Shown here one piece after another: positions 20,763 to 24,064 of a DNA stretch of 46,300 nucleotides. Source of the stretch: Alistipes sp. (GTDB taxonomy: Bacteria; Bacteroidota; Bacteroidia; Bacteroidales; Rikenellaceae); assembly GCA_017531305.1 (NCBI GenBank), contig JAFXLG010000026.1, forward strand, positions 1-46,300, read 5' to 3'. The position numbers were made by a program, and so were the translations under genes. The notes beneath the pieces were generated by a model. That model ran no database searches. It was not told the origin of the DNA and was given only the letters and a program-made list of their open reading frames with translations. Numbering within the stretch: the first letter of the stretch is position 1; each line of letters begins with the position of its first letter.

Positions 20763-20794
20763 TTTGCTAAATAAAAAAATTATATATACATTTG
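20763..20794 (+). promoter_or_regulatory. promoter of tRNA-Lys
   Basis: TTTG (20763-20766), a 20-base spacer and TACATTTG (20787-20794): an exact consensus match, 39 bases before the mature tRNA. Confidence 0.75.
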
Positions 20795-20833: not shown

Positions 20834-20906
20834 GATCCTGTAGCTCAGCAGGTAGAGCACAACACTTTTAATGTTGGGGTCCCGGGTTCGAGCCCCGGCG
20901 GGATCA
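20834..20906 (+). tRNA. tRNA-Lys (anticodon TTT)
   Basis: 73-nt cloverleaf: acceptor GATCCTG/CGGGATC, anticodon arm CAACA-CTTTTAA-TGTTG (anticodon TTT), T arm CCGGG-TTCGAGC-CCCGG and discriminator A. CCA is not encoded. Confidence 0.96.
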
Positions 20907-20914
20907 CGGAAGAG

Positions 20915-21050: not shown

Positions 21051-22106
21051 ATGCAGAAAATTTATAAAATAGCGGCGGCACATGGCATTACGGCTGTGGT
21101 ATGGGATTATATGCAACAGGCGAAGGCTGGTGACGAATCGGCTCATCAAGGGCAACCTCTATCGAAAGCAGAGATGATTAAGTGGATGGTTACTGTAGAG
21201 CAGATAGAGCGTAAGTATGAGCATCAAAAGAGTGTTATCGCGAAGCTGGCGAAGTTTTTTGCGCAGCATGGTATAAAGATGATGATTCTGAAGGGCTATG
21301 GCTTGAGCTTGAATTATCCAGTGCCGAATCATCGCCAATGCAGTGATATAGATGTTTGGCTATTTGAGGAAAAACTCACTGAAGATGGGGGTGTTGAACG
21401 TCTGGGAGTGCAGCAAAAAGCAGATATGTTGTTGCATGAACATTATAATATCCCAATTGATAATGGGAAACATCACCACACGGTATTTTATGTGGATGGT
21501 GTGATGGTTGAGAATCATTACGATTTTCTAAATATCCATGCTCATCGTTCCAATCGCGATATTGAGGCTCGGTTGTGGCAATTGACACGCCAACCTATGG
21601 AGGTGGTGGAGGTAGATGGTGCAGAGGTATATCTCCCTTCGCCTGATTTTCACGCGTTGTTTATATTGCGTCATTCAGCATCGCATTTTGCTGCCGAAAG
21701 AATCGGGATACGTCATTTGTTGGATTGGAAGTTTTTTGTCGAGCGATATTTTGAAAAGATTGATTGGAAGGGGTTGTTTGTTTTTGCCGAGCAGATGAAC
21801 ATGCATAGATTTTTGAATGCGATGAACGCAATATGCATAGATAAATTAGGCTTACCCGTGAGGTGTGTGCCTGAGTTTAATCGTGAGGAGAAGTTGACAG
21901 TGCGTGTATGGAATGAGATTATGCAGCCTGAATTCAATGAAACGCAGCCGAGGAATGTCGGATATTTGAAATCATGGGCTTATATGTTCCGCCGTTGGTG
22001 GGCTAATCGTTGGAAGCATCGCATAGTCTATCGTGAAACATTGCTGAGTACCTTCTTTGTTCAGATTTGGAGCCATATGCTTAAGCCTAAGTCGCTTAAG
22101 TTATAA
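21051..22106 (+). CDS. NTP_transf_5-type putative nucleotidyltransferase
   Basis: About 351 residues; ATG at 21051 preferred over the in-frame TTG two codons upstream. 'MMILKGYGLSLNYPVPNHRQCSDIDVWLF' near residues 80-108 is the core motif of the NTP_transf_5 family (nucleotidyltransferase fold), with the D-x-D pair in 'SDIDVW' as likely metal ligands. A conserved 'VENHYDFLNIH' and 'LILRHSASHFAAERIGIRHLLDW'-type segment follow. Members are often found in capsule or polysaccharide loci, but here the gene stands alone between tRNA-Lys and the retron. The substrate is unknown. A weak TATTTTCG motif at 21022-21029 may serve as the -7 element. Confidence 0.75.
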   Translation: MQKIYKIAAAHGITAVVWDYMQQAKAGDESAHQGQPLSKAEMIKWMVTVEQIERKYEHQKSVIAKLAKFFAQHGIKMMILKGYGLSLNYPVPNHRQCSDIDVWLFEEKLTEDGGVERLGVQQKADMLLHEHYNIPIDNGKHHHTVFYVDGVMVENHYDFLNIHAHRSNRDIEARLWQLTRQPMEVVEVDGAEVYLPSPDFHALFILRHSASHFAAERIGIRHLLDWKFFVERYFEKIDWKGLFVFAEQMNMHRFLNAMNAICIDKLGLPVRCVPEFNREEKLTVRVWNEIMQPEFNETQPRNVGYLKSWAYMFRRWWANRWKHRIVYRETLLSTFFVQIWSHMLKPKSLKL

Positions 22107-22153
22107 CATAGAGTCAAATAGTCGTATCCTGTAATAAATATGCGTATAAAGTT

Positions 22154-22184
22154 TTTGAAAATTCAGTATTAACGAGTAATTTTG
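22154..22184 (+). promoter_or_regulatory. retron promoter
   Basis: TTTG (22154-22157), a 19-base spacer and TAATTTTG (22177-22184): an exact Bacteroidota consensus. It predicts a transcript 5' end at about 22188-22191, at the start of the a1 arm of the retron RNA. Confidence 0.75.
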
Positions 22185-22187
22185 AAT

Positions 22188-22321
22188 GCCTGTCGGAAGA
22201 TTGATTTTCGCTGTATTCTTGCGGCGAGTATTGAAACGTCAGAAGATGTTTGTCCGCTTTGTTCGCAGTCGTTCTCGATGAGCGCATGCGTTCTTCACTT
22301 TAAGTAGAATTTCCGACAGGC
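22188..22321 (+). ncRNA. putative retron msr-msd RNA
   Basis: Bounded by an 11-bp perfect inverted repeat, arm a1 GCCTGTCGGAA (22188-22198) and arm a2 TTCCGACAGGC (22311-22321), which lies 15 bases before the RT start codon. Inside, an msr-like stem-loop TCGCTG-[8 nt]-CGGCGA occupies 22208-22227. A longer msd-like region follows, where GAAGA (around 22242-22246) can pair with TCTTC (22292-22296), flanked by AAA/TTT. This is the standard retron order a1-msr-msd-a2-RT. The branching guanosine and the exact msDNA ends were not determined; the fold was examined by eye only. Confidence 0.75.
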
Positions 22322-22336
22322 TTTTTATTTTTCAAG

Positions 22337-24064
22337 ATGGATGGTTTTGATTCTAATATGATTGAATTTTGCGAGATCGACAGCCGCCGTGATCTGGCTG
22401 CATATTTAGGGTGCCAATATAAGGATTTGATATACAACCTGTTCGTCTTGCCTGATGATAAACGGTACAAAAAAATACAGATACCCAAGCGCAATGGCGA
22501 CACACGTGATATATTAGCCCCATCATCGGGAATTAAGCGTGCTCAACGCATGCTGGCAACAATCTTATCTGATCTGTATAAACGTAAATCATGTGTTCAC
22601 GGATATGTGAAAAAACATAGTATTCTGACTAATGCAAGTGTGCATAAGAATAAACGTATAGTTATTAATATTGATCTGAAAGATTTCTTCCCCTCGATTA
22701 ATTTCGGAAGAGTTAGGGGCTTGTTTTTAAATCCTCCATTTTCTTGCTGTGAAGAGGTCGCAACCTTCATGGCGCAAATATGTTGTTTTGATGGTGTACT
22801 ACCACAAGGAGCACCGACATCACCGATAATATCTAACTATATTTGTCGCAGTTTAGATAATGAACTATTAAAATTTGCTCGTAAATATAGACTTGATTAT
22901 ACTCGTTATGCTGATGATATAACATTCTCGACAAATTTGAGAGAGATTCCCAGTCGGTTAGGTGTAATTCAAGAAAACAAACTTGTCTTATCAGAATATT
23001 TTACATCCATAATAGAGGAGAATGGTTTTAAGATAAACCCCTCGAAAGTTCGCTATTCTTACCATACGGGACATCAGGAGGTTACTGGTTTGGTTGTAAA
23101 TAAGATCGTTAATGTTCATAGAAAATATGTCAAGCGTATCAGAGCTATGATTCACGCATGGGAAAAATATGGACTCACAGCAACGGCAAATGAACATTTT
23201 GAGAAGTATAATTATAAACATAGATTACCTGAATCGCCCGATTACGCCTTTAAATTGGAGTTGCAGGGTATGATGGGATTCTTGGCAGCGGTAAAAGGGA
23301 AAAATAATCAAGTTTATGCTCGACTCTACGAAAGACTAATTCTTCTTGATAAACATACCATACTTCAGCCACCTCTGAGAATTACTGCTCCTAGAGATTC
23401 TGTTGTGATATATGGCGAGGGTAAGACCGATGTAGTACATCTTGCTGCTGCATACAGACATTTTCAGCAGCAAGGTGAGTTCCTCGGGTTGAAACTGCAT
23501 TTTCATCGTTGGGGAAACCATGATGTTAATAATGAATTTGTGTATAATATGTGTCGTACTCGATCAGAGAGCAAGGAGAACGACAATCTTGAGATCTATA
23601 TTTTTGATCGTGATGTCGCCCGATATGTTAAAGATACAACGGAGAATGGAAAAGGTTTTAAGCGATGGAGCGACCGAGTCTATTCCGCAGTCTTGCCTAT
23701 CCCTCCACATCGTGATTTTAATGATATATGTATAGAGCATTTTTATTCCGATCAGGATCTCGCCAGACGAGATAAGTCTGGTCGCAGAATCTATACAAGT
23801 TTTGATTTCAATCCGCAAAGTGGAAATCTAAAGGACTCTAATGATATTTATTATCCTTATAGACAAGAGTTAAAAAGAACATATCCTAAAATTATTGATG
23901 ATAAAGTGATGAGGATTAGCTCAGGCGAGAATATAGCATTGTCAAAAAACAATTTTGCATTGTACATATCTCGTGGTATAGGAGAATTTGCAGATGTGGA
24001 TTTTGAGAATTTTCGTCCGATATTTAAATTGATAGAAGAGATTGTCCATAATAGTATGCGATAG
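22337..24064 (+). CDS. retron reverse transcriptase fused to a TOPRIM domain (Ec67/Eco2-like)
   Basis: A 575-residue protein. The RT part (1-340) has the retron-specific NAxxH motif as NASVH near residue 98, RT motif 3 'INIDLKDFFPSINF', 'LPQGAPTSPIISNYIC', the catalytic YADD at ~191-194 and the retron VTG motif ('HQEVTGLVVNK') near 249. The C-terminal part (350-575) begins 'DSVVIYGEGKTDVVHLAAAY' and continues 'LEIYIFDRDVARYV': Glu361 of GEGKTD and Asp424/Asp426 of DRD are the acidic residues of a TOPRIM nuclease fold. RT-TOPRIM fusion is the arrangement of retron Ec67/Eco2, where the fused domain is the defence effector. The RT would copy the upstream RNA into msDNA and hold the TOPRIM part inactive until phage triggers it (inferred from that family). 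The DNA is more AT-rich than the neighbours, which suggests transfer. Confidence 0.92.
   Translation: MDGFDSNMIEFCEIDSRRDLAAYLGCQYKDLIYNLFVLPDDKRYKKIQIPKRNGDTRDILAPSSGIKRAQRMLATILSDLYKRKSCVHGYVKKHSILTNASVHKNKRIVINIDLKDFFPSINFGRVRGLFLNPPFSCCEEVATFMAQICCFDGVLPQGAPTSPIISNYICRSLDNELLKFARKYRLDYTRYADDITFSTNLREIPSRLGVIQENKLVLSEYFTSIIEENGFKINPSKVRYSYHTGHQEVTGLVVNKIVNVHRKYVKRIRAMIHAWEKYGLTATANEHFEKYNYKHRLPESPDYAFKLELQGMMGFLAAVKGKNNQVYARLYERLILLDKHTILQPPLRITAPRDSVVIYGEGKTDVVHLAAAYRHFQQQGEFLGLKLHFHRWGNHDVNNEFVYNMCRTRSESKENDNLEIYIFDRDVARYVKDTTENGKGFKRWSDRVYSAVLPIPPHRDFNDICIEHFYSDQDLARRDKSGRRIYTSFDFNPQSGNLKDSNDIYYPYRQELKRTYPKIIDDKVMRISSGENIALSKNNFALYISRGIGEFADVDFENFRPIFKLIEEIVHNSMR

Follow-up and report, generated by a model that had tools for sequence, protein, structure and literature searches.

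A predicted self-contained RT-Toprim (type I-C) retron in Alistipes sp., in a branch separate from Ec67/Eco2

The closest described system to the locus reported here is retron Eco2 (Ec67), a type I-C retron in which a reverse transcriptase (RT) is followed by a Toprim domain in one protein, and the RNA, with its inverted repeat a1/a2, lies just 5' of the gene; the Alistipes locus has the same arrangement. According to PMC12405507, the Eco2 Toprim is required for defence, in line with a first-pass annotation that had named this domain as the anti-phage effector. The same paper describes the isolated Toprim as a toxic RNase and the msDNA-bound protein as restrained in the form of a trimer. Phages that escape Eco2 carry denB mutations, which implicates a phage nuclease as the trigger. 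Toprim domains in other defence systems differ in target: a Toprim cuts DNA in Gabija (PMC12405507), and AriB of PARIS, a Toprim with an ATPase partner, cuts tRNA-Lys and tRNA-Thr (PMC12409363). A literature search, made mostly outside subscription papers, found no experimental study of the RT-Toprim branch considered below. Retron type names follow PADLOC and the cited papers.

The window analysed here is a stretch of 46,300 nucleotides of Alistipes sp. DNA, and the retron features within it are collected in Table 1. The promoter, the 11-bp repeat bounding 134 nt and the 575-residue RT with its motifs lie, to the base, where the first-pass annotation had placed them, as does the spacer of 15 bases between a2 and the start codon. 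The reading frame runs through 575 codons without a stop. A T-rich run follows a2. The promoter pattern, which we take to be the Bacteroidota consensus, occurs nine times in the window versus 0.69 expected from shuffles, and is thus a genuine motif of this genome, though not peculiar to the retron locus. The RNA 5' end is predicted to fall exactly at a1 (22188). This coincidence had been called an independent check on the RNA boundary; it is no more than suggestive.

Table 1. Features of the retron locus (positions are those of the window)
Feature	Position	Strand	Basis or remark
Promoter, Bacteroidota-type: TTTG (22154-22157), 19 bases, TAATTTTG (22177-22184)	22154-22184	+	exact match to TTTGN{19,21}TANNTTTG
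Retron non-coding RNA (msr-msd), a1 to a2, 134 nt	22188-22321	+	
Arm a1, GCCTGTCGGAA	22188-22198	+	perfect 11-bp complement of a2
Candidate branching G (G of TTGATTT, 5' of msr hairpin)	22203	+	inferred
Conserved msr hairpin, stem 22208-22214 with 22221-22227	22208-22227	+	covariation; matched by model R1
Presumed msd template of about 70 nt with uncertain limits	22240-22310	+	assigned by its place between the msr hairpin and a2
Arm a2, TTCCGACAGGC	22311-22321	+	perfect 11-bp complement of a1
RT-Toprim fusion gene, 575 aa	22337-24064	+	ORF; PADLOC RT-Toprim_I-C
RT domain and connector, aa 1-340	22337-23356	+	Pfam RVT_1; motifs
RT motif NASVH, aa 99-103	22631-22645	+	
RT motif YADD, aa 191-194	22907-22918	+	
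RT motif VTG, aa 249-251	23081-23089	+	
Toprim effector domain, aa 341-575	23357-24061	+	conserved residues; AlphaFold2 model
Toprim motif GEGKTD, aa 360-365	23414-23431	+	
Toprim motif FDRD, aa 423-426	23603-23614	+	
Toprim position CIE	23729-23737	+	
Toprim position Lys537	23945-23947	+	

The a1/a2 pair scored 29.5 in an upstream-repeat test devised for this analysis. None of 100 shuffles reached this value (largest 28.5), nor did any of 28 further ORF starts in the window (at most 25.5) or of 300 positions drawn at random from it (at most 29.0). The fold of 22186-22325 is unusually stable (z -4.81; 0/200 shuffles as good). The first-pass annotation had staked its reading on conservation of the repeat together with the RT in related genomes. 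This held throughout the first choice of loci, namely the window and nine other RT loci picked from 78 collected loci (10/10), in which the arm sequences vary; in seven of the nine no shuffle out of 100 equalled the repeat score, with 2/100 doing so in L063 and 1/100 in L056. It held less well in five loci taken later, where one scored 28.0 (L113) and four were weak (L171, 23.0; L062, L040 and L041, 20-20.5), that is, below the best of the 28 control starts, the L062 stretch being badly framed. L171 is 55% identical over 128 aa and ends at a contig edge, and its repeat is unconvincing. With 28.0-29.0, L113, L063 and L052 score no higher than the best of the 300 random window positions.

Between the arms, the relatives have TTGATTT and a 7-bp hairpin in common. 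In eight sequences 100% of the cells of this msr hairpin are paired, with two-sided changes in four of the seven pairs and 0/500 shuffles as good; in a model-fitted alignment of 11 distinct sequences 98.7% of the cells pair. Counts of further pair types did not beat the shuffles (482/500 and 493/500 as high in two alignments). A retron covariance model had been suggested as a check on this RNA, and the outcome was favourable: R1, trained on seven relatives with the Alistipes window left out, found its best window match at 22199-22235 (E 2.7e-4), the second having E 4.3 with filters off. R1 was run on 68 sources, the window plus 67 of the 78 collected loci, and gave 13 matches, each just 5' of a same-strand RT; nine of these comprise the training set of seven and its copies, and the new ones are L062, L041, L040 and the window. 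No match was obtained in the RT-less Toprim loci, in four Ec67-type loci (L055, L056, L011 and L042) or in viral-contig RT loci (best 80 of 388), and from the last we regard the RNA model as narrow. Rfam has no retron family in the window at the gathering threshold, and nothing in 22100-22420 up to E 10.

The candidate branching G at 22203 is kept in 10 of the 11 distinct sequences, with T in Herpetosiphon. In Eco2 the branching rG15 is followed by A16-U19 and then a stem (PMC12405507), and the Alistipes RNA has the same G-AUUU-hairpin layout. Because of this conservation and the placement like that of rG15, 22203 appears a likelier branch point than the second candidate, G 22199, which adjoins a1.

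PADLOC RT-Toprim_I-C models PDLC02965 and PDLC02968 match nearly the whole protein (648.9-653.6 bits), the latter with 653.6 bits over aa 18-573 (E 6.4e-197); given this near full-length match and a Toprim fused C-terminally, the protein belongs to RT-Toprim type I-C. Both models also match proteins of Herpetosiphon, Salinibacter, Lutibacter and Pleurocapsa. The NAxxH, YADD and VTG motifs of retron RTs are present as NASVH, YADD and VTG, and among NCBI models those for retron RTs score best. The best sequence match in the PDB is Ec67/Eco2, over the RT part only (phmmer). RT and connector also score highly with the PADLOC models of retron types XI (RT-protease) and XII (RT-TIR), whereas the Alistipes effector is a Toprim. 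Pfam returned RVT_1 only (E 5.2e-20, aa 49-251), its Toprim model leaving the C-terminal domain undetected. Pfam also gave Mfa2 for the C-terminal piece, but weakly (E 0.00067) and below the cut-off of that model, and we took this match as chance.

In the C-terminal Toprim domain, the E, D, FDRD and E residues and the K do not vary among 18 aligned sequences including Alistipes, with Ser or Cys before x-E. Eco2 has the catalytic residues E374/D378, D460/D462, S513/E515 and K562 (PMC12405507), and the positions match in Alistipes, the counterparts being E361/D365, D424/D426, C465/E467 and K537. Of these, E361/D365 and K537 were aligned to Eco2 by MAFFT, which did not align the DxD and S-x-E positions with the Ec67 types; DxD and C/S-x-E were aligned only by profile-profile comparison with the Ec67-type set. 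The Toprim subfamily profile reaches the Eco2 Toprim in the PDB (E 6e-5), and hhalign of this profile against the Ec67-type Toprim alignment gives a probability of 98.4% (E 6e-15) at 24% identity. The AlphaFold2 model of aa 330-575 has a pLDDT of 90.4, and an Eco2 chain (E 1.3e-4, TM 0.52) is the sole PDB entry that it matches at E <= 0.001; a chain of the PARIS complex (8ux9_A) is a weak match (E 0.36, TM 0.27). For the full-length protein the model is of modest quality (pLDDT 76.8, pTM 0.43), and its top PDB match is again Eco2 (E 9e-33), with a modest TM of 0.42 and an rmsd of 13.3.

We propose, with a probability of about 0.78, that this locus is a self-contained RT-Toprim (I-C) retron of a branch separate from Ec67/Eco2, whose Toprim RNase would be restrained by msDNA and freed on infection. 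The locus contains a structured 134-nt RNA bounded by a1/a2, with a clade-specific msr hairpin, and encodes an RT whose catalytic motifs and a fused Toprim whose conserved residues are, as far as sequence tells, intact. That it is a complete one-gene retron with its RNA, as first annotated, is borne out by the PADLOC match, the R1 match, the Toprim motifs and the Eco2 fold match, and it is probably functional as an anti-phage system. Homology and the intact residues suggest that its mode of action is most likely like that of Eco2. The RT would prime on the branching G, probably 22203, and make msDNA from about 70 nt of the RNA. It would remain bound to this msDNA, and the RT-msDNA complex would hold the C-terminal Toprim nuclease in check. 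Once a phage function attacked or bound the msDNA, the Toprim would be freed and would cut RNA, so that translation and phage growth stop.

In another reading, the locus is a retron with a Toprim that cuts DNA, as Gabija or OLD nucleases do. The DNA-cutting Toprim of Gabija offers a precedent (PMC12405507), and domains of the Alistipes subfamily follow AAA_21/AAA_15 ATPases, as in OLD proteins. We nevertheless consider a DNA target unlikely, as the closest solved structure is the Eco2 Toprim, described as an RNase in PMC12405507, and the AriB Toprim of PARIS cuts tRNA (PMC12409363).

A second alternative is that the locus is a true orthologue of the Ec67/Eco2 family. The domain order is identical, Eco2 is the best whole-protein fold match and the Toprim profiles are homologous. 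The protein, however, scores 378.8 bits with the NCBIfam Ec67 family NF038237, under its cut-off of 450, and over aa 10-379 only, and so falls outside the family by this test; the positive cases from E. coli (L055) and Enterococcus (L056) reach 702.4 and 665.9 bits, respectively. Placed in a phylogeny, as the first-pass annotation had advised, the Alistipes RT has as its sister that of Lutibacter (L057; 48% RT identity, support 99/97), with other near kin in Salinibacter, cyanobacteria and a Herpetosiphon plasmid. In trees of 24 and 48 rows it groups with the Lutibacter, Salinibacter and cyanobacterial RTs, apart from the Ec67 types, which form a clade of their own (support 100/99). In AU tests, whose groups were named after the first tree was seen, a clade of the Alistipes RT and the Ec67 types alone was rejected (p 0.02), whereas one uniting all window-type with all Ec67-type RTs was not (p 0.126). 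Monophyly of the six window-type RTs was marginally rejected (p 0.043), and for this reason we do not claim a single fusion event. With R1 finding no match in the four Ec67-type loci as well, orthology appears improbable. The first-pass description of an Ec67/Eco2 architecture thus stands for the domain order and fails for the family, from which score, RT clade and a missing trimer loop set the protein apart.

The points against a plain copy of Eco2 are the loop, one residue of the RT and the msd. The Eco2 trimer loop Asp331-Arg332-Tyr333 falls in a gap of the Alistipes protein in the MAFFT alignment, from which we suggest that the assembly may differ. An Ec67-family protein of Enterococcus also has no Asp-Arg-Tyr loop. 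At the position of Eco2 F46 the Alistipes RT has Ile47, where 11 of 13 aligned RTs have Phe; loss of the aromatic residue is harmful in Eco2 (F46) and in Eco1 (Y51), according to PMC12405507. Nor is a long msd hairpin predicted, in contrast to Eco2: under the chosen limits (22232-22310) no stable msd DNA hairpin was found, and the DNA strand, complementary to this stretch, has no unusual fold (z -0.28, 77/200 shuffles as good).

Ile47 and the weak msd hairpin, together with the lack of a second full-length copy in 180 genomes of the genus, could also mark a decaying retron, intact in sequence and no longer producing msDNA. Against this, the frame is uninterrupted, the RT and Toprim motifs, a1/a2 and the msr hairpin are all intact, and the Alistipes stem is still paired where both partners of one pair have changed (C-G at columns 35/49), so that we give decay little credence. 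Least probable by far is that the RNA and its repeat are an ordinary leader or terminator, as the T-rich run after a2 might suggest, and that the RT acts without msDNA in the manner of a DRT, since hairpin and repeat recur 5' of related RTs with differing arm sequences, and the best DRT model reaches 28.8 bits, with retron RT models scoring best among those of NCBI.

As a locus, the Alistipes retron is ordinary and well formed; its class is known, its branch rare and little studied. A match at E <= 0.001 occurs in 18 of 180 genomes of the genus (G016 by its Toprim part only), and none besides the source genome has a full-length copy. Of 395 genomes drawn evenly from the class, the source genome alone passes E 1e-90, and a draw of 395 genomes of the phylum added one full-length match (L039). 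The figures of this match are those of Salinibacter altiplanensis (L059), of a genus placed by GTDB within Bacteroidota, which lends indirect support to Bacteroidota as the phylum of the source genome. Full-length copies of this RT-Toprim branch are therefore rare. Six RTs of the genus that were placed in the tree fall in another clade, three of them on long branches, and vertical descent within the genus is unlikely, given these placements and the lack of another full-length match in the 180 genomes. Rarity and kinship point to a horizontal gain.

The flanking genes are themselves found in relatives: among 61 genomes, source included, the M28 peptidase gene occurs in 10 (E <= 1e-80) and the nucleotidyltransferase gene in 23 (E <= 1e-40). 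Some 1.5 kb of flank was compared in 12 relatives, nine by the peptidase and three by the nucleotidyltransferase. Homology ends near the gene ends, and no other tested window gene lies in these flanks; accordingly, no insertion limits were drawn.

For a retron branch that has database models and for which the literature search found no experimental study, the RNA is now fixed, and its covariation-supported msr element can be used to find further members. Comparison of this branch with Eco2 may reveal which among the trimer loop, the aromatic residue and the msd hairpin are needed to restrain and release a fused Toprim.

The Toprim also occurs in other settings. Single-sequence protein scans of genome and viral contigs gave no relative; alignment-based scans found 15 loci in the genome contigs (84,980 species) and seven in the viral contigs. 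Toprims of the same subfamily are fused to an RT in L057, L059, L061 and L063 and split from it in L062 and L067. They stand behind an AAA_21/AAA_15 ATPase (Pfam) in L058, L064, L066, L071, L072, L073 and L078, before NB-ARC-TPR-SEC-C in L060, alone in L065, and after a stretch with no Pfam match in L074 and, judging by length, in L075. Close kin of the RT carry other effectors, namely Mrr_cat in L040 and AAA_5 in L054. As in PARIS, a sensor would control the Toprim effector of the Alistipes system, and Toprims of its subfamily stand behind ATPases resembling AriA and PtuA; the Alistipes sensor, in contrast, would be RT-msDNA.

We tentatively suggest, as a possibility still on the doubtful side, that the RT is a platform that swaps effectors (Toprim, Mrr-type endonuclease and AAA+), that its Toprim nuclease module is shared with OLD/PARIS-like ATPase and NB-ARC-TPR loci, and that the lineage is distinct from Eco2. 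One common module that cuts RNA would then be released by three unrelated sensors, and in this branch the msDNA would detect infection by way of an assembly differing from the Eco2 trimer. With such a module one could examine whether one and the same nuclease activity is under the control of different immune sensors. Outside the Pfam scan, loci L068-L070, L076 and L077 resemble the ATPase-Toprim loci in length or layout.

The Toprim subfamily represented by the C-terminal domain of the window protein is also found on proteins that lack a reverse transcriptase (RT). At loci L058, L064, L066, L071, L072, L073 and L078 a Toprim of this subfamily follows an AAA_21/AAA_15 ATPase similar to PtuA, AriA and OLD, and L064 and L072 are also matched by the fused AriAB model. 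In Bacterium UASB270 (DF820472.1; locus L060) it forms the N terminus of a 1017-amino acid NB-ARC-TPR-SEC-C protein, which looks like a sensor of the STAND type whose effector is the Toprim. A genome of the same genus as the window, G016, contains a match to the Toprim part only (26% over aa 355–567) within an open frame of 631 amino acids, possibly an ATPase-Toprim protein.

Among the related RTs, one of 574 amino acids with the Toprim motifs EGVTD, FDRD and ICIEH lies on an IMG/VR contig (L113), which is that of a Mu-like phage with portal- and head-like ORFs, as judged by eye. PADLOC scored this RT at 580 bits with RT-TIR_XII and at 424 with RT-Toprim_I-C, the type matched by the window protein. 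Since a type XII model ranks first here, and the XII models also match the RT-less Toprim proteins of L058 and L060, these models may include Toprim proteins. The NCBI TIR-retron model ends at aa 342 in L113 and aa 349 in the Lutibacter RT-Toprim fusion (L057), and extends to aa 413 in the Herpetosiphon plasmid retron (L051). Other related RTs are fused to different putative effectors (see table).

Locations of features in the window and in related loci
Feature	Location
Codon of RT residue 47	window 22475-22477
tRNA-Lys(UUU) gene	window 20834-20907
Promoter match	window 20763-20794
NB-ARC-TPR-SEC-C protein with Toprim	L060:3986-7036
Match to Toprim part only	G016:C3:102282-102917
Phage-borne RT with Toprim motifs	L113:2962-4686
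Related RT fused to putative Mrr_cat endonuclease effector	L040:967-2571
Related RT fused to putative AAA_5 ATPase effector	L054:2471-4729
Related RT of a more distant clade fused to putative HisKin-conflict domain effector	L044:1327-3345

Retron-like RTs are present in other genomes of the genus as well (L002–L008); the six placed in the tree fall in a clade other than that of the window RT, and retron content therefore varies within the genus.

Residue 47 of the window protein is Ile, and the Herpetosiphon RT has Leu at this position, which is occupied in 11 of 13 aligned retron RTs by Phe, the template-stacking residue. The RNA upstream of the Herpetosiphon RT (L063/L051) has TTTATTT in place of the element TTGATTT. 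Because it lacks the otherwise conserved G, this retron may prime at another site or be inactive.

A tRNA-Lys(UUU) gene, accompanied by a promoter match, lies approximately 1.3 kb upstream of the window retron. The PARIS Toprim is described in PMC12409363 as targeting tRNA-Lys; the closeness of gene and retron is probably a coincidence.
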